From Candidatus Aminicenantota bacterium (GTDB lineage: Bacteria; Acidobacteriota; Aminicenantia; Aminicenantales; JAFGAV01): a stretch of 52,720 nt of DNA. The position numbers and the translations under genes are program-made. Below, piece by piece: positions 10,873-42,392 of the stretch (position 1 is the stretch's first letter; the number at the start of each line of letters is the position of its first letter). Below the pieces are notes generated by a model. The model saw only the letters and a program-made list of their open reading frames with translations, was not told where the DNA came from and did not search any database. Location of the stretch: assembly GCA_016933515.1 (NCBI GenBank), contig JAFGAV010000005.1:1-52720 (forward strand), written 5' to 3'.

Positions 10873-12206
10873 TGAAAACCCGGGAGTTTTTTCTTCTGCT
10901 CCTGATCATCGCCGCCGGGATCGTGCTCACCCACTACGAAAACGGCGAGATGGAGAACTGGAAAGTCCGCTGGGCCTGGGACGGCCCCTTCATTCGCCTG
11001 GGCCGGGCCTTTACCTTTGAGGAGTCGGGCGAACTCTTGCCTCCCTTTTCCCGGACTCTGGAGGTTGTGAACGAGCACGGAAGCGTGAAGGTCCTGGGCG
11101 AGGCGAGAGAAAACATGACCGTCACGCTGACCAAAACGGTCTGGCGGAGAAAAGAGGCGGACGCGCGCCGCGCCGCCGAACGCCTCGGCCTGATCATCAG
11201 GAACGACGGAGAAAAAGTGATCGTCTCGGCCGGCCGGCCCGACCTCCCTCTTCGCAACCATGAGACGCATCTCACGCTTTCGGTGCCGGAGGGCTTGAAC
11301 GTGACGGTCCGCAATGGCCACGGACGGGTGAAGACCTTCCGGACCGGCGATACGGTCATCTCGAATTCCCACGGTCGGGTTGAGGCCGGCGAGGTCAGGG
11401 GAACGCTCCTTCTGGAGAACAGACACGGAGACGTCGCGGCGGTTGACCTCTCCTCCGATTGTTCGATCAGAAACGGTCATGCCGCGGTCTTCACCGCAAG
11501 AGTCAAAGGAAACCTCAAGATCGAGCACGCCTACGGGCCGGTCACCGTGGAAGACGTCTCCGGCGACGTCACGGTCAACGCTCCCCACTCCCGCGTGACG
11601 GCGCTGCGCCTGGCTGGGACGACAGCCGTCGACAGTTCGTACCAAACCGTGAGCCTGGCGCACACGGGAACGGTCGCGGTCAGGGGCCGGCACGCGGTCG
11701 TCGCGCTGCGGAGCGTCCGGGGCGTCATCGACGTCTCGAATTCCTACGGCCGGACCGAGATCGTGGACGCGACGGGCCGCGTGAACATCCTGGGTCGGAA
11801 CATGACGGTCCGGGGAGAGGGGCTGACGGCCTCCGAGATCGAAATCGCCACGAGCTACGGAGACATCATCCTCAGGAATTTCAGCGGGCGGACGATGATC
11901 AGGCAGAAGCATGCGGCCGTGCGGCTCGAACCCTCATCGGTCGCCGCGGGCATTCGGGTCGAGGGGCAGTACGCCGCCCTCGAATTGCTCTGGCCGGCCG
12001 CGGCCCGGTCGCCTATCGAATGCCGCGCCCGGGACGGCGACATCCGGTGGGAGATTTCCGAGACGCCCTCGCTCAGCAGGAGCAACGGGCTATCTCTGCT
12101 TCGGGTTTTTTCGGACCTGGAAGGAATGCCGCCCGTCCTCCTGTCCACGACCCACGCCGACATTACGGTTCGGGAAGCCTCTCCTGCCGGAGAGCAAGAG
12201 CCCTGA
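10869..12206 (+). CDS. DUF4097 adhesin-like protein, membrane-anchored
   Basis: ATG at 10869 overlaps previous stop; TM FFLLLLIIAAGIVLTHY then repeated NGHGRVKTF/NSHGRVEAGEVRG/NRHGDVAAVD units. Confidence 0.8.
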   Translation: MMKTREFFLLLLIIAAGIVLTHYENGEMENWKVRWAWDGPFIRLGRAFTFEESGELLPPFSRTLEVVNEHGSVKVLGEARENMTVTLTKTVWRRKEADARRAAERLGLIIRNDGEKVIVSAGRPDLPLRNHETHLTLSVPEGLNVTVRNGHGRVKTFRTGDTVISNSHGRVEAGEVRGTLLLENRHGDVAAVDLSSDCSIRNGHAAVFTARVKGNLKIEHAYGPVTVEDVSGDVTVNAPHSRVTALRLAGTTAVDSSYQTVSLAHTGTVAVRGRHAVVALRSVRGVIDVSNSYGRTEIVDATGRVNILGRNMTVRGEGLTASEIEIATSYGDIILRNFSGRTMIRQKHAAVRLEPSSVAAGIRVEGQYAALELLWPAAARSPIECRARDGDIRWEISETPSLSRSNGLSLLRVFSDLEGMPPVLLSTTHADITVREASPAGEQEP

Positions 12207-32647: not shown

Positions 32648-33679
32648 ATGAGAAAAACCGCGGTCTTTGGGCTGTCCGTTCTGCTCATTGTCACTGCCTT
32701 TTGGGCCTGCAAGCCGAAAGCGGGAGGAGTAGCCGCCAAATCCCAGGATCTCTTGTCTCTGCTTCCCCAGGATGTCCAAGGCGTCCTCGTCATCGACGTC
32801 CAAAACGGCATGAAAATCGAAACCGTCGCCGACTTCATGAACAAAGCCCAGGAAGAGGAGGAGTTCAAGGAGTTCATCGGGAAGACGGGCATCGACCCCC
32901 GGACGGACATCCGCTTCCTGGCCGTCGGACTGAAAATGGGCGGCGAAAAGCAGGAAGGCGTAGGCGTCGTCAACCTGGACTACGACCGCGAGGCGCTTCT
33001 GGCGGCCATGAGCAAGGACGGAGAGGTCGGGAAAGCCGACTACAAGGGCGTGACGATCTACACCCCTCCGAGCGACTCCGAGGGCGAGGAGGAAGCCGAG
33101 GCCGAAGAGATGCGGATCGCTTTTCTTGACGAGGCCAACATCGCCGCCGGATCGCCCGCCCTCCTCGAAGCGGTCATCGACGTCTTCCAAGGAAGCCAGC
33201 CCGGCGTGACCAAGAACACCGAACTCATGCCCCTCGTTCGGGAAGCCAAGAAAACCTCGCTCGTCTGGGGCGTTTTTCTTGTTCCCGCCGAAGCCCTGAA
33301 AGAAACAGCCGGACAGGTCCCGATGCTGGGCAATATGGACGCCATCCAGTCCGTCCTGATGGCCATCGACTACAAAAACGAAAACGTCGTTATGGAGTTC
33401 AAGGGCAAGGGAACGGACGAAGCCAAGCTCAAACAGATCGGGGACGCGCTCACCGGAATCAAGGGACTGGGGGGCATGATCGCCCAGGAGAAGCCTGAAA
33501 TCGGCGAGCTCCTCAATAAAATCGAAATCACCTCTGGCAAGGACTTCGTCATGATCTCCGCCGTCTTGCCCGAAGAACTGATTAAAAAGCTTGCGGCCAT
33601 GGCCGAGGAAGCCGCCCCCAAAGCGGAACCCGAGATTTTCGAGGAACCGACCGAGGAGCTGCCGCCCGACCTGCAGTAG
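32648..33679 (+). CDS. Putative lipoprotein of unknown function
   Basis: 343 aa; signal with lipobox-like VTAFWAC; acidic C-terminus. Confidence 0.7.
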   Translation: MRKTAVFGLSVLLIVTAFWACKPKAGGVAAKSQDLLSLLPQDVQGVLVIDVQNGMKIETVADFMNKAQEEEEFKEFIGKTGIDPRTDIRFLAVGLKMGGEKQEGVGVVNLDYDREALLAAMSKDGEVGKADYKGVTIYTPPSDSEGEEEAEAEEMRIAFLDEANIAAGSPALLEAVIDVFQGSQPGVTKNTELMPLVREAKKTSLVWGVFLVPAEALKETAGQVPMLGNMDAIQSVLMAIDYKNENVVMEFKGKGTDEAKLKQIGDALTGIKGLGGMIAQEKPEIGELLNKIEITSGKDFVMISAVLPEELIKKLAAMAEEAAPKAEPEIFEEPTEELPPDLQ

Positions 33680-33683
33680 CGCT

Positions 33684-34463
33684 TCAGTTTTCGGTCACAT
33701 ACTCCTTTTGGGAAAAGACCAGCCCGGCCGCGGCCAGGAAAACGACGGTTAAACCCGCAAGAATGAGGACCGCGAAGAGGGGCGGGCTGGGCTCGAGCAT
33801 CAGTCGCAGGAAGGAAAAGGTTTGTCCCGGCGGCTGGGGAATGAGCGATTTGACGTAGTGGGCGATGGCCAGCTTCTGGGTCAGGCCCGGAAAAAAGGCG
33901 ATCACGTTTTCCCATCCGAAACAGAACAGCAGTCCGAAGAAAATCGCCCTTTTGACGAACGTCCCCATCAGGGTGAACAGGGACAGATAACAGAGCAGGC
34001 TGAGGTCCAAAACCGCCGAATCTCTTGCGACCGAAAGCCAGGCCGACGGATCGCCGGCCCTCTCGATTTTCAGGATCAGAAATGAACCGAAAAGGCCGAT
34101 GTTCAGCACCGCCAGCGCATGGCCGGCCGAGGCCGCGAATTTCCCCAGGACCGCTGCCGGCCGCGACAGAGGCCGGGTGAGCAGATAGGCCAAGGTCCGC
34201 CCTTCGACCTCCTCGAGGACGACGGACGTCCCGAAGAAAAGCGCCAGCATCAACACCAGAAACTGGACATAAAAAGGAAGGATGACGTTGGAGTAGAAAA
34301 ATTCTCCCGAAAAGCCGCGCGGAGCGATCGAAAGGGCATGGCGCATCCTGAAGAGCAGGGAAAGCAGCACGGGAACGAGGCCCAGGGCGAAAAAGACTTT
34401 CGTCCTTTTGGCTCTCCGCCCCAGGCCGAAAAAGAAAACGGCGGCTCTCCATGCGGCTCTCAT
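33684..34463 (-). CDS. ABC transporter permease (ABC-2 type)
   Basis: GTSVVLEEVEGRTLAYLLTRPLSRPAAVLGKF plus multiple TM; directly after ATPase gene. Confidence 0.82.
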   Translation of the reverse strand: MRAAWRAAVFFFGLGRRAKRTKVFFALGLVPVLLSLLFRMRHALSIAPRGFSGEFFYSNVILPFYVQFLVLMLALFFGTSVVLEEVEGRTLAYLLTRPLSRPAAVLGKFAASAGHALAVLNIGLFGSFLILKIERAGDPSAWLSVARDSAVLDLSLLCYLSLFTLMGTFVKRAIFFGLLFCFGWENVIAFFPGLTQKLAIAHYVKSLIPQPPGQTFSFLRLMLEPSPPLFAVLILAGLTVVFLAAAGLVFSQKEYVTEN

Positions 34464-34464
34464 G

Positions 34465-35388
34465 TCATTTCCCCACCAGATAATCGAACACCGCCTGGAG
34501 GTTGTCGTCGGGCGAGGTGATCTCCTCAATCTCCAGATCGAGCTCCACGACGAGGGCCGGCAGTCCGCCGAAGAACAGGTCCCGGTTGTCGGTCTCGAGA
34601 GTCAGGAGCCCGTCGGGGCCGAAGTGAACCTTGAGGACGTGCGGCTCTTCCATCAGCCGGGCGGCGAGCTTTCGCGGCCGGTCGCAACGCAGGGCGACGA
34701 CGTGCGGATGGGCGTCGATGAGATCCCGGATGTCATGGATGTCGCCCGCAGCGATAATCTTTCCCTGATGCAGGAGACGGATATCCCGCGTCAGAGCTTC
34801 GACCTCGGGCAGGACATGGCTGGAGACGAGAATCGTTCTGTTCCCGGCCTTCAGCTCCTTGATCAGCCTGATGATCTTGCGCTTGCCGAGCGGATCCAGG
34901 CCGTTAAGCGGCTCGTCCAAAATCAGGATCTCCGGATCGTGGGCCAGAGCCTGGGCGACTTTCAGCCGCTGGCGCATGCCCCGGCTGTAGCCGCGGATAA
35001 GACGGTTCTCATCGCCCCAGATCTCCACGAGCCGCAGGGCCGATTCCGTCCGGCGCGCCGCTTCCGCGGCGCCGAAACCGTGGAGGCGGAGAAGACCGTC
35101 CAGGAATTGCCGGCCGGTCGTATCCTCGTAGAAGCTGTCGTGCTCGGGACAATAGCCGATCCTGCGGAACAGGGCGGGATTGTTCCAAACCCCTTCCCCG
35201 GCGAGGAGGACGCGGCCCAGGCTGGGCTTGAGCTGTCCGGTGAGAAGCTTCATCAGCGTCGATTTTCCCGCGCCGTTGGGACCCAGAAGCCCCGTGATCC
35301 CCGGCCCGATTTCAAGGCTGACCTCGCTCAGGCCGAGGATGTTGCCGTACCATTTGGACAGCTTCCGGGTTTGGATGACAGGCGTCAT
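34465..35388 (-). CDS. ABC transporter ATP-binding protein
   Basis: GLLGPNGAGKSTLMKLL, YSRGMRQRLKVAQALAHDPEILILDEPLNGLDP. Confidence 0.95.
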   Translation of the reverse strand: MTPVIQTRKLSKWYGNILGLSEVSLEIGPGITGLLGPNGAGKSTLMKLLTGQLKPSLGRVLLAGEGVWNNPALFRRIGYCPEHDSFYEDTTGRQFLDGLLRLHGFGAAEAARRTESALRLVEIWGDENRLIRGYSRGMRQRLKVAQALAHDPEILILDEPLNGLDPLGKRKIIRLIKELKAGNRTILVSSHVLPEVEALTRDIRLLHQGKIIAAGDIHDIRDLIDAHPHVVALRCDRPRKLAARLMEEPHVLKVHFGPDGLLTLETDNRDLFFGGLPALVVELDLEIEEITSPDDNLQAVFDYLVGK

Positions 35389-36254
35389 TTTATGATCGTG
35401 ACTCCGCGGATTCTTCGGTTCATCACCCACGCGCCCGCGGCGACGACCGCGGCCAGGACGACGAACGCATAGACGCTCGGCACCTCCAGGACCGGCTTCG
35501 TTCCGAAGAGCGGCGCGGCCGCGAGTTTGAGATTGGTCTTCACGGACACGAGCCCGACGTAAGGAGTTCGGAAGATGCCCCGCAGGATCTCGGCCAGCAT
35601 GTCCGAGAAGACGTAAATCCCGAAAATGAGAAAAGACGCCGTCCGCCTGTTGCGGCTGAGGGAGGAAAGCAGGAGGCTGTAAGAGGCGAAAAAGACCGCC
35701 GCCGCGGCGGAGTAAACGACGATCGCCAGAGGCAGCCCGGGATGGTCGCGCAGGAGCCCGAAGCTGCCGCTGAAGACGATCTTGAAGACGACGAGCAGCA
35801 GGCCGGGAACGAGCGTCAAGAGAAGAACGAAGAACATGACCACGGCCGCCTTGCCCAGGACGTAATCCCTCTTGGCCAGCGGGCGGGCGAAGTAAAGCTG
35901 CAGGGCGTTGTGCTTCAGGTCGTCGGCCACCAAGCCGGCGGCGCAGAAAATCAGAAGGACGACGGTCATGAACAACACGAAATCGGCCGTCAGGTAGGAG
36001 AGGAAGTATCCGGGAACCACACGGAGGGGCATGGCGCCCTTTCGGACGATCCCCTCGAAGTCCTGGAGCCTCTCCGAAAGGTAGATGCCCGCCAGGAACA
36101 CGAAGGCGGGGAGGAACGACAGGCTGAACGCGAACTTGAAATGCTTCCTCTTGAAGGCCAGACGGATGCCGAGGCGGGCGATGGGTTTCCAGCCCCGTCG
36201 ACGCTCTTCGAGGCGGCCGTCCCAGCGGTGATAGCCCTTCTCCCTGATGCTCAT
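35385..36254 (-). CDS. ABC transporter permease (ABC-2 type)
   Basis: ATG at 36254 overlaps ATPase stop; multiple TM; NALQLYFARPLAKRDYVLGK. Confidence 0.82.
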   Translation of the reverse strand: MSIREKGYHRWDGRLEERRRGWKPIARLGIRLAFKRKHFKFAFSLSFLPAFVFLAGIYLSERLQDFEGIVRKGAMPLRVVPGYFLSYLTADFVLFMTVVLLIFCAAGLVADDLKHNALQLYFARPLAKRDYVLGKAAVVMFFVLLLTLVPGLLLVVFKIVFSGSFGLLRDHPGLPLAIVVYSAAAAVFFASYSLLLSSLSRNRRTASFLIFGIYVFSDMLAEILRGIFRTPYVGLVSVKTNLKLAAAPLFGTKPVLEVPSVYAFVVLAAVVAAGAWVMNRRIRGVTIIK

Positions 36255-37183
36255 CCCTCCACCCCCACGCTCTGGGCGAAGAGATCCTCCAGGGAAGTCC
36301 GGCTGGGGAGAAAATGCCGGATCTGGGTGCGGTCCTCGGCCGCCAGGCGGAAAACTTTCTTTCTGTCCAGTCCGACCGGCATAAAAACGCGGAGAAGCCC
36401 GTCCTCGGTTTCCTCGACGCGGCATCCCAGACCCGTCAGATCCTTGAGGAATTTCCCGCTTCCTCCCTTGACGCGCATCTCGAAGAGATTGAAATTCGGT
36501 TGCCTCAAGTCGGCGAGCCGGCCAAGGGCCGCCACACGGCCTTTGTTCAAGATGACCGCCTGGGAGCAGACGGATTCGATGTCCGACAGGATGTGGGAGG
36601 AAATGAGGACCCGGATGTCCTTCTTGGCGGCGATGTCGGCGATGAGTTCCAGAATGTCCGTCCGCCCCCGCGGGTCCAGGTTCGCGGTCGGCTCGTCGAG
36701 GAAAAGAAGGGGGGGGTCGTGGACCAGGGCCTGGGCGAGCTTGAGTCTTTGTTTCATCCCCGCGGAGTAGGTCTCCAGAAACCGATAGCGGGCCTCTCCC
36801 AGTCCGACATAGAACAGAACGTCGTGCGCCCTTTTCATGGCCTCCTGGCGCGGCATGCCCGCCAGCTCCCCCAGGTAGGAGGTGAACGTCACGGCGTCCA
36901 TTCCGGGCAGGAGGCAGTCGTCCTCGGGCATGTATCCCACCCGTCGCCGGATGTCGTCGCGTTCGAACCTGATGTCATAGCCCAGGACCCGGCCTTCGCC
37001 GGAGTCGGGCTCCAAAAAACCGAGCAAAATGCGCAGCAGCGTGCTCTTGCCGGCTCCGTTGGGCCCCAGAAGCCCCGTCGCGCCTGCCCCGAGGGAAAGG
37101 CTGACTCCTCTGAGCGCCTCGATCGGGCCGTAGCTGTAAGCGATGTCTTTGAGCTCGATATCGACCGTTTTTCCGGCGCTCAC
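36251..37183 (-). CDS. ABC transporter ATP-binding protein
   Basis: GLLGPNGAGKSTLLRILLGF, YSAGMKQRLKLAQALVHDPPLLFLDEPTANLDPRG. Confidence 0.95.
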   Translation of the reverse strand: MSAGKTVDIELKDIAYSYGPIEALRGVSLSLGAGATGLLGPNGAGKSTLLRILLGFLEPDSGEGRVLGYDIRFERDDIRRRVGYMPEDDCLLPGMDAVTFTSYLGELAGMPRQEAMKRAHDVLFYVGLGEARYRFLETYSAGMKQRLKLAQALVHDPPLLFLDEPTANLDPRGRTDILELIADIAAKKDIRVLISSHILSDIESVCSQAVILNKGRVAALGRLADLRQPNFNLFEMRVKGGSGKFLKDLTGLGCRVEETEDGLLRVFMPVGLDRKKVFRLAAEDRTQIRHFLPSRTSLEDLFAQSVGVEG

Positions 37184-37250: not shown

Positions 37251-38888
37251 TCATCCGGAACCGCCGTCCTCCTTCGAAGACCGGACGAGCGTTCCCCGTC
37301 CGAAAACGATGGCCTCGTAGGCCTTGCGGACACGGTCCCAATTCTCCTCGCGGTCAAGCGGCCAGAATCGGCCCATGACCGTCACCACCCGGCCGCATCC
37401 CAGGCGGAGGCATTCCTCCTCGACCTTGTCCACGTACACGGCTCCGCTTTCGGGAATTTCGCCGCGCCGACCGATGAAACCGTGAATGAAAACGCGCTCC
37501 AACCCGCTGTCCCTCGCCAACCGGAGAAGGGCGAACAGATGTTCCAGAGTACCGTGGGAGCTGTAATGGGAGACGATGCCCATGAGATGAAGAGCCCGTC
37601 CCCGGCGCCGGGCCGCATCCGTCGCTTCCCGGAACGCGGCGTTGGAGGCAAAGCTCCCGTCCTCGATCGACCGGTCGATGCGGACCCGGTCGAGAGGAAC
37701 CCTCCGCCCGGCGCCGAGATGAAGATGCCCCGCCTCGGAGTTGCCCACCGTTCCGGCCGGCATGCCCACCGCCTCGCCCGCGGCTTGGAGCAAAGCTCGG
37801 GGATAACGGGACCAGAGACGGTCGAAGTTCGGCGTCCGGGCCTGAGCGATCATGTTGCCGCGGATCTCCTCCCGCATCCCCCATCCGTCCAAGACCAGGA
37901 AAAGAAGACGGGACCTCCGGGGAGTCCCGTCATTCGAAACCGTGTCCACAAGGCTTCGTCCGTTCATCTCTGCGGGCCGGCGGATTCCCAACATCGTCAA
38001 TGCGGTCGGAGCCGCGTCGGCCAGCTCGCCTTCGGGAGCCAGCCGCACGGATTCGGGACGGGGGAATCGAAAGTCGGCCACGAGGAACGGCACGCGGTTC
38101 CGGGTGTGGCCGGTGTTGATGGAACCGTCGTCATAAAGCCAATCCTCTACCGTTCCGTGGTCGGCGGTGACGACGAGCGCCGCGCGCTTCCGCTCGGCCG
38201 CCTCGGCGATCCGGCCGAGAACGAAGTCCACCGTCTCCACGGCGGTGAGAACGGCCTCCCGGCTCTCAAGATGACCCACCACGTCCACATTGGCCAGATT
38301 GGCGACGATGACGTCGGCGGTTTCATCGTCGAGGGCGCTTAAAATTTCCCGGCACACGTCCTGGGCGCTCATTTCCGGCCTTCGGGCGTATGACACATCG
38401 CCCGGCGGGGAGGGCACGACGATCCTGTGCTCTCCGGGGAAGGGCTCTTCGCGCCGGCCGTTGAAAAAAAATCCGACATGGACGGCTTTCTCGGACTCGG
38501 AGATCTTGACGACCTTGCAGCCGGCCCGGGTGAGGACTTCGGTCAGCGTGCCGCTCAGCCGCTCGTTCGGCGGGAAAGCGACCTTCACCCGGAGCTGCGG
38601 AGAGTATTCGATCATGGTCACGAAATGAAGGCTCAGGCCTTTTTTCACGGGGAAATGAGGGAAATTCTCATCGGTCAGGCTCCGGGTGAGTTCGACTTCA
38701 CGCTCGCCTCGGATGTCGTAGAAAACAATAGCGTCTCCCTCTTCCGGGCGCCCCAAGGGATTTCCCTCCGCATCGGCCAGCACGATCGGTTCCAGGGCCT
38801 CGTCCTCCTGACCCTTCCTGTAGGCGTCACGAACGGCCCTTCCCATCAGGGACGGGACCGGGAAGGCCGGCGGCGGTTTTGCGTTCAT
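37251..38888 (-). CDS. Circularly permuted cofactor-independent phosphoglycerate mutase (iPGM)-like protein
   Basis: 545 aa, ATG at 38888 with upstream GGGGGAG. Residues ~17-314 match the canonical C-terminal part (AIVFYDIRGER, HVGFFFNGRREEPFPGEHR, NLANVDVVGH, VTADHG, TGHTRNRVP, PAEMNGRSL); residues ~327-533 match the canonical N-terminal part (LVLDGWGMREEIRGN, GTVGNSEAGHLHLGAGR, HLFALLRLA, MGRFWPLDREENWDRVRKAY). Confidence 0.92.
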   Translation of the reverse strand: MNAKPPPAFPVPSLMGRAVRDAYRKGQEDEALEPIVLADAEGNPLGRPEEGDAIVFYDIRGEREVELTRSLTDENFPHFPVKKGLSLHFVTMIEYSPQLRVKVAFPPNERLSGTLTEVLTRAGCKVVKISESEKAVHVGFFFNGRREEPFPGEHRIVVPSPPGDVSYARRPEMSAQDVCREILSALDDETADVIVANLANVDVVGHLESREAVLTAVETVDFVLGRIAEAAERKRAALVVTADHGTVEDWLYDDGSINTGHTRNRVPFLVADFRFPRPESVRLAPEGELADAAPTALTMLGIRRPAEMNGRSLVDTVSNDGTPRRSRLLFLVLDGWGMREEIRGNMIAQARTPNFDRLWSRYPRALLQAAGEAVGMPAGTVGNSEAGHLHLGAGRRVPLDRVRIDRSIEDGSFASNAAFREATDAARRRGRALHLMGIVSHYSSHGTLEHLFALLRLARDSGLERVFIHGFIGRRGEIPESGAVYVDKVEEECLRLGCGRVVTVMGRFWPLDREENWDRVRKAYEAIVFGRGTLVRSSKEDGGSG

Positions 38889-38925: not shown

Positions 38926-39813
38926 TCACTCCAACCCCAGACAGAGAAGCGAGTAGGGATCCACGCGCGCTCCGCGGGCCCGAACGCTCCAATGAAGATG
39001 AGGCCCCGTGGAACGTCCGGTGCTGCCGACCGCGGCGATGACTTCCCCGCGCGCGACGGACTGCCCGGTCCGAACTTCAAGGCGCGAGCAGTGACAGTAA
39101 ACCGAAAAAATGCTCAGTCCGTGGTTGATGATCACGGTCCGGCCGGAAAAATAGAGATCCATCGCCAGCGCCACCTGTCCGGAATTGGAAGCCCGGATCG
39201 GAGAGCCCGCTTCGGCCGGGATGTCGACGCCGGTATGGCGGGAACGCGGGACGCCGTTGTACAGTCGATGCTCGCCGAAATTGAGCTTCGGCGCGTCGGG
39301 CAGGGGGGCGATGAAATCGCCGGAACCCAGCCATTCGGGGACGGCGTTCCGGTAGACTTCGGCCAAAATCGTTCTCTCCCGCGCCAACCGCTCCTCGAGC
39401 TCGGCCGGGGGTGTGACCAGCCTGGGATCCATTGCGATGTCGCGGCGCGAAAAAGACCGCTCATGAAGCCGAATGTATTTCTGAACGGTTTCCTTCCGGC
39501 CGGACGTATCGCTGAAGACGACCTCGACGCGGTACGATCCGGGTTCGGTCAAGAAATCCACTCCCACCAGAGCCAGGCGTTTTCCGGCCGGACCTCCGGA
39601 ATGGAAGTCATAGCTCTTTCTAAGAAAAGTGAGCCGGGCCTCCTGTCCTTCCTCCGCGGGGCGGAAAAGGGCGAGAAGCATTTCCCCCGGCCGGAGAGAG
39701 CGGGCCGTGATTTCGACGATCGCTCCGGAATGAGATTCAAAACGCAGAACGCCGAGCGCCCCGAGCCGGCAAAAGCCGAAAAGGACGGAAACCGTCAGGA
39801 TCCGCTTCCACAT
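38926..39813 (-). CDS. M23-family metallopeptidase
   Basis: SRHTGVDIPAEAGSPIRASNSGQVALA, VYCHCSRLEVRTGQSVARGEVIAAVGSTGRSTGPHLHWSV; signal-like N-terminus. Confidence 0.9.
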   Translation of the reverse strand: MWKRILTVSVLFGFCRLGALGVLRFESHSGAIVEITARSLRPGEMLLALFRPAEEGQEARLTFLRKSYDFHSGGPAGKRLALVGVDFLTEPGSYRVEVVFSDTSGRKETVQKYIRLHERSFSRRDIAMDPRLVTPPAELEERLARERTILAEVYRNAVPEWLGSGDFIAPLPDAPKLNFGEHRLYNGVPRSRHTGVDIPAEAGSPIRASNSGQVALAMDLYFSGRTVIINHGLSIFSVYCHCSRLEVRTGQSVARGEVIAAVGSTGRSTGPHLHWSVRARGARVDPYSLLCLGLE

Positions 39814-39839
39814 GACGGGCAGCCGTGAGCCTCGGGAAA

Positions 39840-40025
39840 TCATCGTTCAGCCCGCGGCCTCTTCCCCGACAAGGACTTCAAGATTTTTCCGGGGAGCCGC
39901 CCGCTGCGATCGAAGCGGAATTTCTCGGCGCTCCCTCTCCTCCAAGGGCCTGGGCCGCCGGATCCGGCCGCCGCGGCGGCCAAAATCCCGGTCACGAATT
40001 CCCCTCCCAACGTCCTCTCGAGCAT
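39840..40025 (-). CDS. Possible small protein (61 aa)
   Basis: ATG with GAGGAG upstream; TM-like FVTGILAAAAAG; weak support. Confidence 0.25.
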   Translation of the reverse strand: MLERTLGGEFVTGILAAAAAGSGGPGPWRRGSAEKFRFDRSGRLPGKILKSLSGKRPRAER

Positions 40026-40257: not shown

Positions 40258-41079
40258 TCAGAAGCGGACGGCGAGGCCGAAGGAAACGGGAGTGACGGCG
40301 GCGGAGACGCGGGCCCCGCTCTCCGCCGCCCGGTTCAGGTCGGCGATCTTTAAGGCGACGACATGGCCGAGGGCCGCGCCAAGCAGGACGTCCGAGGCCC
40401 AGTGCTTGTTGTCGTGGACGCGCGAGGCGGCCACGAGTCCGGCCAGGCCGTAAAGCAACGCATCCGCGACGAAGCTGTCCGTGCGGCAGGCGATCGACGT
40501 CGCCACGGCGAACGCGGAGGCCGCGTGGCCCGAAGGAAGGGACAGGTAGCCGGCCTGGAAGGTGAACGGCCGGAAATGATTCGCCGGCAATCCGAGCTCG
40601 GGCCGCGCCCGGCCGAGAAGGCATTTCAAGGTCAAAACGACGGCTCCCGATACCGCGAGACTCTCAAGACTCAGGACGGCCGTCTTCCGGGCGCCCCGGC
40701 TGGGCGCGACTTCGCCGGCCAGATAGAGTCCGGCCAGAAAAGCGGTCAGGTAGGCGGCGTCTCCTCCGTTCTCCATGAAACTCATGAAGCGGTTCGAATT
40801 CGGCGTGCGCCGTTCCTGAGCCCAGTCCCGGATGTCCTCGTCGCGGCTGTAGGCCAGTCCGGTGACGCCCAAAACGGCGGCACAGCCTAAAAATTCAACG
40901 GGTTTCCAGGAGAAAGGCGAAGCCAGTACGCCGCCCGCATCCCTGGCCAAGTGCGTCCAGAACTCGTTGTCGAGATGATACGCCCTCATCTCGGCGGGCT
41001 GGCCTCCGAAGGCCGGGACCGTCGAGACCAGAAGCGCCGCGGCCAAGAGAGCGGCGGCCTCGGGCCGGGATCCCCTCAT
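40258..41079 (-). CDS. PAP2-family phosphatase
   Basis: KCLLGRARPELG, SLPSGHAASAFAVATSIA, ASRVHDNKHWASDVLLGAALGH. Confidence 0.9.
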   Translation of the reverse strand: MRGSRPEAAALLAAALLVSTVPAFGGQPAEMRAYHLDNEFWTHLARDAGGVLASPFSWKPVEFLGCAAVLGVTGLAYSRDEDIRDWAQERRTPNSNRFMSFMENGGDAAYLTAFLAGLYLAGEVAPSRGARKTAVLSLESLAVSGAVVLTLKCLLGRARPELGLPANHFRPFTFQAGYLSLPSGHAASAFAVATSIACRTDSFVADALLYGLAGLVAASRVHDNKHWASDVLLGAALGHVVALKIADLNRAAESGARVSAAVTPVSFGLAVRF

Positions 41080-42392
41080 GACTTCCTCCGCGCGACGTCA
41101 GGGACGTCATAACTCTCAATGGCTTCCACGGTCCGCCCCGTGGCGCCCTGCAGGCTCTTCAGAGTCAGACGAGACCTCTCGCCCTGAACCTTCAGGCGGG
41201 CAGGGTCAGGGAAAAGAAACATTTCCCTCAGGTCCTCCGGAGTCCTCACCACCTGGGCGCCTCCGCCGGCCAGGAAGGATTCCGCCAGGCTCGAGAAATT
41301 GTGCATATGGGGTCCGAAAAAAATCGGTTTGCCGAAAGCGGCTGCTTCAAGCAGGTTGTGACCGCCCCAGGGAACAAGGCTTCCCCCAATGAAGGCCGCG
41401 TCGCCCAGGGCGTAAAATCCCGCGAGCTCGCCGATCGTGTCCAGAACGAGAACTTCCCACTCCCCTTCCTGCGGCGCGGCGGTCCGTCGGCGGACCCGGA
41501 GCCCCCGTTCCCGACAGGCCCTTTCGACGTCCGCGGCCCGTTCCACGTGCCGGGGCGCAAGGATGAGGAGAACGTCTTTCCGGACTTTCCTGGACTCGCA
41601 AAAAGCGTCCAGGAGAAGGACGTCTTCGCCCTCGCGGGTGCTGCCGGCGACAAGGAGCCTGTTCTCGGGGGCCAAGGCGATTTCTTTTCGGCGGCGGATC
41701 AGACTTTCCTCATCGATATCGTCAGGCACGATTTCACATTTGAGGTTCCCGGCAACGCGCACCTTTTCCGGATTCGCACCCGACCGGATCAACCTCTCCC
41801 GGTCCTGCTCGGTCTGAACGAGGAACAAGGAAACGTCGTTGAAAAGGCGTCGGGCCAGAAGTCGAAGTCTCCCGTATCGTCGAAACGACCTTTCCGAGAC
41901 CCGGCCGTTGACGACCAGCACCCCTCGGGTTCTTTTTCGGGCCTGGCGGAGAAGGTTGGGCCAGAGCTCGGACTCGGCCAAAACCAAAAGATCGGGTTCG
42001 AAGCGGCGAAGAAAACGGCGCACCGTCCAGCCGAAATCCAACGGGGCGAAGAACAGCCTGTCGGCCGCGTCCAGTTTTTTCCGGGCGACGTCCATGCCCG
42101 CCTGGGTCAGAACCGAGACATAGAGCGCCCAGTCGGGGTGCCTGTCCTTGATTTCCCGAGTCAATTTTTGGAGAGAGGTGACCTCTCCCACGGAAACGGC
42201 GTGCATCCAGAGGGAGAAGCGGCCGGGGGCCCGGGGCGGAAGGAGAAAACCCATCCTCTGCCGCAAGAAAAGGGGGGCCCTCCTTCCCAGCCTCATCCGA
42301 ACGAAATACGCGGGCAGCAGAACCGCCAAACCGAGGGTCAAGAACAAAGAATACAGAAAATACAAAATGTGCACGGGAGATGGACTATACAC
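41076..42392 (-). CDS. waaA: 3-deoxy-D-manno-octulosonic acid transferase
   Basis: SLWMHAVSVGEVTSLQKL, LFFAPLDFGWTVRRFLRRFEPDLLVLAESELWPNLL, GGHNLLEAAAFGKPIFFGPHMHNF; start position uncertain (GTG). Confidence 0.92.
   Translation of the reverse strand: MYSPSPVHILYFLYSLFLTLGLAVLLPAYFVRMRLGRRAPLFLRQRMGFLLPPRAPGRFSLWMHAVSVGEVTSLQKLTREIKDRHPDWALYVSVLTQAGMDVARKKLDAADRLFFAPLDFGWTVRRFLRRFEPDLLVLAESELWPNLLRQARKRTRGVLVVNGRVSERSFRRYGRLRLLARRLFNDVSLFLVQTEQDRERLIRSGANPEKVRVAGNLKCEIVPDDIDEESLIRRRKEIALAPENRLLVAGSTREGEDVLLLDAFCESRKVRKDVLLILAPRHVERAADVERACRERGLRVRRRTAAPQEGEWEVLVLDTIGELAGFYALGDAAFIGGSLVPWGGHNLLEAAAFGKPIFFGPHMHNFSSLAESFLAGGGAQVVRTPEDLREMFLFPDPARLKVQGERSRLTLKSLQGATGRTVEAIESYDVPDVARRKS

Follow-up and report, generated by a model that had tools for sequence, protein, structure and literature searches.

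Does a protein that contains all of cofactor-independent phosphoglycerate mutase (iPGM), but with its two halves exchanged, represent a genuine natural circular permutant, and if so, does it remain a phosphoglycerate mutase (PGM)? These questions are raised by a gene located within a stretch of 52,720 nucleotides from a Candidatus Aminicenantota bacterium (hereafter called the window), which an earlier note made from the sequence alone had interpreted as a circularly permuted iPGM. The reading that we prefer, and to which we assign a probability of roughly two in three, is that the protein is a true natural permutant of the iPGM fold. It would belong to an ancient paralogous family of one likely origin that is present in at least three phyla, and whose substrate is probably not simply 2PG or 3PG.

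One open frame with the halves of iPGM in swapped order

The gene is a single open frame that lacks internal stops, and the sequence GGGGGAG lies immediately 5′ of its start codon. It resides on the minus strand (Table 1), a detail that had not been given previously. A phmmer search against the PDB aligns its product with 1EJJ as two collinear blocks whose order is swapped, wherein each canonical block occurs exactly once, and the E-values (phmmer 6e-119) rule out chance as the source of this match. The second block matches 1EJJ without gaps over 209 residues (query 329-537 to 7-215). Block 1 comprises the C-terminal parts of the transferase domain B and of the phosphatase domain A, and block 2 comprises the N-terminal parts of domains A and B. 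Furthermore, the NCBIfam model TIGR01307 gives the window protein 455 bits as the sum of two stretches, exceeding the cut-off of 330.65, and two Pfam domains are detected, Metalloenzyme and iPGM_N, whose best stretches are 105-302 and 404-533, respectively. Thus, the phmmer and TIGR01307 results bear out the original description of an uninterrupted frame of 545 codons that carries every iPGM block once and in exchanged order. A new linker indeed connects the canonical C- and N-termini, but its location had to be amended from 37910-37949 to approximately 37908-37946. Both the sequence and the length of the linker region vary among relatives.

Table 1. Coordinates of the permuted gene, its parts and its conserved neighbors in the window
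Feature	Position	Strand	Details or basis
Permuted iPGM homolog, CDS	37251..38888	-	545 aa; ATG at 38888, stop ends at 37251
Block 1, residues 18-314 = canonical iPGM 219-509	37947..38837	-	phmmer to 1EJJ, 196.8 bits
Linker DTVSNDGTPRRSR, residues 315-327	37908..37946	-	Joins canonical C-terminus to canonical N-terminus
Block 2, residues 328-537 = canonical iPGM about 6-215	37278..37907	-	phmmer to 1EJJ, 204.8 bits
SSHG motif, residues 443-446 = canonical 121-124	37551..37562	-	Alignment of permuted and canonical proteins
GRRGE motif, residues 473-477, in place of canonical DGRD[TV]	37458..37472	-	Asp154 to Gly, Arg153 retained
M23 peptidase, upstream, conserved neighbor in the window's subfamily	38926..39843	-	Pfam PF01551, E 2.6e-30; synteny
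ABC transporter ATPase, downstream, conserved neighbor	36251..37183	-	Domain search; synteny
ABC-2 permease, ABC ATPase, ABC-2 permease, downstream, conserved neighbors	33684..36254	-	Domain search; synteny
PAP2-family protein and Kdo transferase (WaaA-type), upstream, conserved neighbors	40258..42392	-	Domain search; synteny

An AlphaFold2 model derived from 45 permuted sequences has a pLDDT of 88.9 and a pTM of 0.82. When this model is compared to 1O98 with Foldseek, which preserves sequence order, 301 columns align with an rmsd of 2.4 and a TM score of 0.50. Such a partial match of the predicted structure would be expected if a method of this kind aligns only a single block at a time. A model of block 2 folded alone was poor (pLDDT 63.9) and was left unused.

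Distribution and ancestry of the permuted form

The genome from which the window derives is a draft in 123 contigs, and a misassembly, a chimeric contig or frameshifted tandem gene copies might merely resemble a permutation. We reject this explanation and consider its remaining chance negligible, because tens of independent assemblies carry the identical block order and breakpoints, including single-contig genomes of 4.4 Mb (L015, G003), and the permuted order is seen in three phyla. A search of other genomes for the same order and a check for misassembly had both been proposed in the earlier note, and both outcomes favor its central claim of a natural circular permutation: the halves occur once each, are collinear and swapped, are joined by a new linker, and have breakpoints common to relatives. 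The permutant is therefore real, and it is not an isolated case: it belongs to a family that spans several phyla and likely arose once.

Scanning GTDB genomes recovered the permuted order in 16 records, most titled Candidatus Aminicenantes and including a 4.35 Mb chromosome (L015); Bipolaricaulota records and one Eubacteriales record from the same scan were canonical. This first scan used query peptides that are particular to the window protein, so it missed a second subfamily, and its narrow taxonomy does not reflect the range of the family. By whole-genome search, the permuted form is present in about 59 of the 143 genomes of the window's class, in a few cases as contig-split fragments. Elsewhere in the phylum Acidobacteriota it is found in families f29, f15 and f79, with approximately 200 other genomes being canonical, and one genome (G316) yields three matches that include a permuted one, with a canonical copy apparently also present. 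More divergent permuted members were recovered from Bipolaricaulota (10 of 100 genomes) and from a third phylum, that of a MAG titled Eubacteriales (11 of 399), and these proteins exhibit 36-45% identity and the same breakpoints as the window's. Their per-stretch TIGR01307 scores fell below the cut-off in the genome search. These counts come from sampled genomes that are mostly incomplete MAGs, and in-depth probing was limited to three phyla.

Relatives were absent from viral contigs, as was any viral structural match at E <= 0.001. Eight plasmid records that were fetched all carry canonical gpmI, and the plasmid matches listed have less than 41% identity except for short ones. Among the records encountered, a 4.9 Mb E. 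coli entry listed as a plasmid (L091; NZ_CP134663.1) is probably a mislabeled chromosome. Similarly, a record titled Clostridiales bacterium (L008, the same as G091; JARYMI010000003.1) has an Aminicenantes-type gene cluster, is placed in the window's order, and is probably a mislabeled MAG. The open-access literature searched yielded no description of a permuted iPGM or of any permuted member of the alkaline phosphatase superfamily. This is weak negative evidence.

To examine ancestry, 67 permuted and 25 canonical proteins were aligned after the former had been de-permuted to canonical order, and trees were computed without inferring a root. One branch separates all permuted from all canonical proteins (bootstrap/SH-aLRT 100/99), and a quick mixture-model tree supports this split at 92. 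Within the permuted clade there are two subfamilies, both supported at 100/100: the Acidobacteriota proteins, that of the window among them, make up subfamily 1, and those of Bipolaricaulota and the third phylum make up subfamily 2. Trees built from either half alone, which were made for subfamily 1 only, recover the same permuted/canonical split with support of 100 and 99. Because each half of the subfamily 1 proteins yields this split, we rejected separate sources for the two halves, and with them a fusion of two unrelated iPGM halves. Since all 67 de-permuted proteins group together to the exclusion of canonical iPGMs, a single ancient permutation event is likely and would be the simplest reading of the sequence data, although it is formally possible that the same site was permuted twice. 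Sequence, independent assemblies and phylogeny thus agree on the order B(C-part)-A(C-part)-A(N-part)-B(N-part) that had been inferred previously, with domain A contiguous and domain B split. An origin by tandem duplication and trimming, also suggested at the time, remains an inference, and no intermediate was found.

Active site and coexisting phosphoglycerate mutases

The center for phosphoryl transfer is intact. All metal ligands (D12, S62, D403, H407, D444, H445 and H462 in 1EJJ numbering), and thus both the two-metal site and the nucleophile serine, do not vary among the 67 permuted proteins. Nine residues contact phosphoglycerate in iPGM, namely S62, H123, R153, D154, R185, R191, R261, R264 and K336 (PMC3886921), and eight of these are likewise invariant in every permuted protein. 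The exception is Asp154, which is lost in 67 of 67. Position 154 is Gly in all 46 proteins of the window's subfamily and Ser in all 21 of the second, and it is Asp in 26 of 26 canonical proteins, with the DGRD sequence remaining intact in canonical copies from genomes that also carry a permuted gene. Gly262, Glu265 and the sequence Ser121-Ser122-His123-Gly124 are common to all permuted proteins. In canonical enzymes positions 121-124 are of the GVHS/GVHA type; His123 is retained.

Fixed changes are concentrated in the pocket of the transferase domain: in subfamily 1, they affect 18 of 56 conserved columns in domain B versus 9 of 80 in domain A (Fisher p 0.004). An intact catalytic center combined with a remodeled but strictly conserved pocket suggests an active enzyme that may have an altered substrate or reaction, albeit one for which there are no activity data. 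It might also be that Glu155, which adjoins Gly154 in the window's subfamily, stands in for Asp154.

The presence of other PGMs in the same hosts bears on this issue. Within the window's class, apgM occurs in 53 of 59 permuted genomes and in none of 10 genomes with canonical iPGM (p 2e-8, uncorrected for relatedness), and two further permuted genomes (G036, G037) carry gpmA. Among 21 genomes of the second subfamily, canonical iPGM is present in 8, apgM in 10 and gpmA in 1, with none found in two. In the window's own genome apgM is apparently split, with fragments that reach the ends of two contigs (C7, which ends at 11263, and C61, which ends at 33522). The permuted enzyme is usually an additional mutase-type enzyme in its host, and we reject a role as sole PGM for most genomes. 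Given that nearly all hosts have another PGM, the substrate is therefore probably not simply 2PG or 3PG. However, coexistence alone cannot prove a new function, because bacteria often carry additional PGMs (PMC2964296).

The protein could instead be a bona fide PGM that happens to be permuted, serving as a redundant or condition-specific isozyme for 2PG and 3PG. Retention of all metal ligands and of eight of the nine substrate residues means that PGM activity is not excluded, and the window protein exceeds the curated PGM cut-off. In addition, no other PGM was seen in six permuted-gene genomes (G991, G895, G017, G023, G025, G093), and a cyclic diphosphoglycerate pathway would also require 2PG (PMC10690619). 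Nevertheless, we consider this explanation unlikely in view of the universal loss of Asp154, the clustering of fixed changes in the transferase pocket, and the second PGM in nearly all genomes, the carriers without one being incomplete MAGs wherever completeness is stated. Because every permuted protein lacks one of the substrate-contact residues and almost every host encodes a conventional mutase as well, the permuted protein is probably not the housekeeping mutase but performs a different job on a substrate that remains unproven. Of the original assignment as a cofactor-independent PGM, the homology stands, whereas the function is not established and is doubtful.

Gene neighborhoods, candidate substrates and known systems

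By inference from iPGM, the metal-bound serine of the permuted enzyme would accept the phosphoryl group of a small phosphorylated acid held in the closed cleft between domains A and B. This group would then be returned to another position, as in a mutase, or passed to water, as in a phosphatase. Neighboring genes offer hints as to what the substrate might be, and they differ between the two subfamilies.

In subfamily 1, the cluster waaA-PAP2-M23-permuted gene-ABC-permease-ABC-permease is conserved in several families of the class. An M23-type peptidase gene directly adjoins the permuted gene in the window, and such a gene also adjoins canonical gpmI in Enterobacter, Qingshengfaniella and Ruegeria. 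An association with a Kdo transferase, a PAP2 protein, an M23 peptidase and ABC-2 exporters could indicate a phosphatase or divergent phosphotransferase that acts on cell-envelope precursors in the window's lineage. We find this proposal improbable, and weaker than that of a PGM isozyme, since adjacency alone is poor evidence when canonical gpmI of Proteobacteria is likewise found beside M23/EnvC genes, and since subfamily 1 members in families f10, f29, f15 and f79 have other neighbors. The cluster that surrounds the window's gene is of an envelope type, but it leaves the substrate open.

Genes of subfamily 2 are located near an organophosphate-type, PhnSUT-like ABC importer, encoded as a run of a solute-binding protein, a double permease and an ATPase. 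The nearest models for these components are those of a putative 2-aminoethylphosphonate transporter, whose cut-offs are not reached. Furthermore, at 12 loci of this subfamily a homolog of cyclic 2,3-diphosphoglycerate synthetase (cDPGS) is part of the same gene run. It is directly upstream and overlaps the permuted gene at eight Bipolaricaulota loci (L108, L109, L112-L117), and it heads the run at four loci of the third phylum (L098, L100, L104, L107). The homolog at L109 matches 8ORK with 399 bits over 10-429. No cDPGS was seen near the window's gene or at other subfamily 1 loci, where neighborhoods but not whole genomes were inspected.

A few loci have neighbors of another kind. One genome (G991) has two permuted copies (L110, L111), each near a homolog of PEP mutase/phosphonopyruvate hydrolase, and the L110 copy is also near two proteins that by eye resemble glycerophosphodiester phosphodiesterases. 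At L069 (G101), a pair resembling sulfopyruvate/phosphonopyruvate decarboxylase subunits lies 3′ of the permuted gene, below curated cut-offs. These occurrences are too sporadic for phosphonates to be the main explanation.

From these neighbors, the substrate in subfamily 2 might be 2,3-diphosphoglycerate, its cyclic form, or a compound of phosphonate chemistry, and we infer, in the absence of activity data, that these enzymes act on glycerate phosphates or close analogs. Within our preferred reading of an ancient family with a substrate other than 2PG or 3PG, a more specific proposal can be offered only tentatively. The family may constitute a new enzyme, a mutase or phosphatase working through a phosphoserine intermediate, whose substrate is 2,3-diphosphoglycerate, cyclic diphosphoglycerate or a phosphonate analog, and in Bipolaricaulota and the third phylum it may form part of an undescribed bacterial pathway for uptake and cyclic-diphosphoglycerate metabolism, together with the ABC importer and the cDPGS homolog.

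A natural permutation that spans a clade, and that affects an enzyme of central metabolism, implies that the hinged two-domain cleft of iPGM functions, or has been put to another use, when the phosphatase domain is contiguous and the transferase domain is divided, and questions regarding the domain hinge become testable with natural instead of engineered sequences. Annotation pipelines likely label these proteins as PGMs, which may be wrong for a multi-phylum family in which one substrate residue has changed in every member and whose hosts normally have a second PGM. Moreover, the link to cDPGS homologs suggests that chemistry involving cDPG, a compound described as restricted to hyperthermophilic methanogens (PMC10690619), may occur in bacteria. 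That methanogen pathway (2PGK and cDPGS) resembles the second-subfamily loci in its cDPGS component, but no phosphoglycerate mutase is named in its description, and the window's gene lacks the cDPGS neighbor.

Among other known systems, eukaryotic glutathione synthetase is a natural circular permutant (cited in PMC2876114) that has undergone the same type of rearrangement, but in a different fold and enzyme. ApgM (TIGR00306) shares the alkaline-phosphatase superfamily with the permuted protein, which is nonetheless not a member: the similarity is weak (33 bits, far below the cut-off), and a separate apgM exists in the same genome. The closest relative is GpmI/iPGM (TIGR01307; 1EJJ, 1O98), with which the permuted family shares every sequence block, a mean identity of approximately 40% after de-permutation, and the catalytic and substrate residues described above. 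Unlike GpmI, its halves are swapped such that domain A is not discontinuous around an inserted domain B, its pocket carries Gly or Ser for Asp154, SSHG for the GVHS-type loop and E265, and most of its hosts have another PGM besides it. Taken together, these comparisons indicate that the fold and chemistry are of a known, iPGM-like type, that the domain order and the pocket are new, and that the function is probably different.
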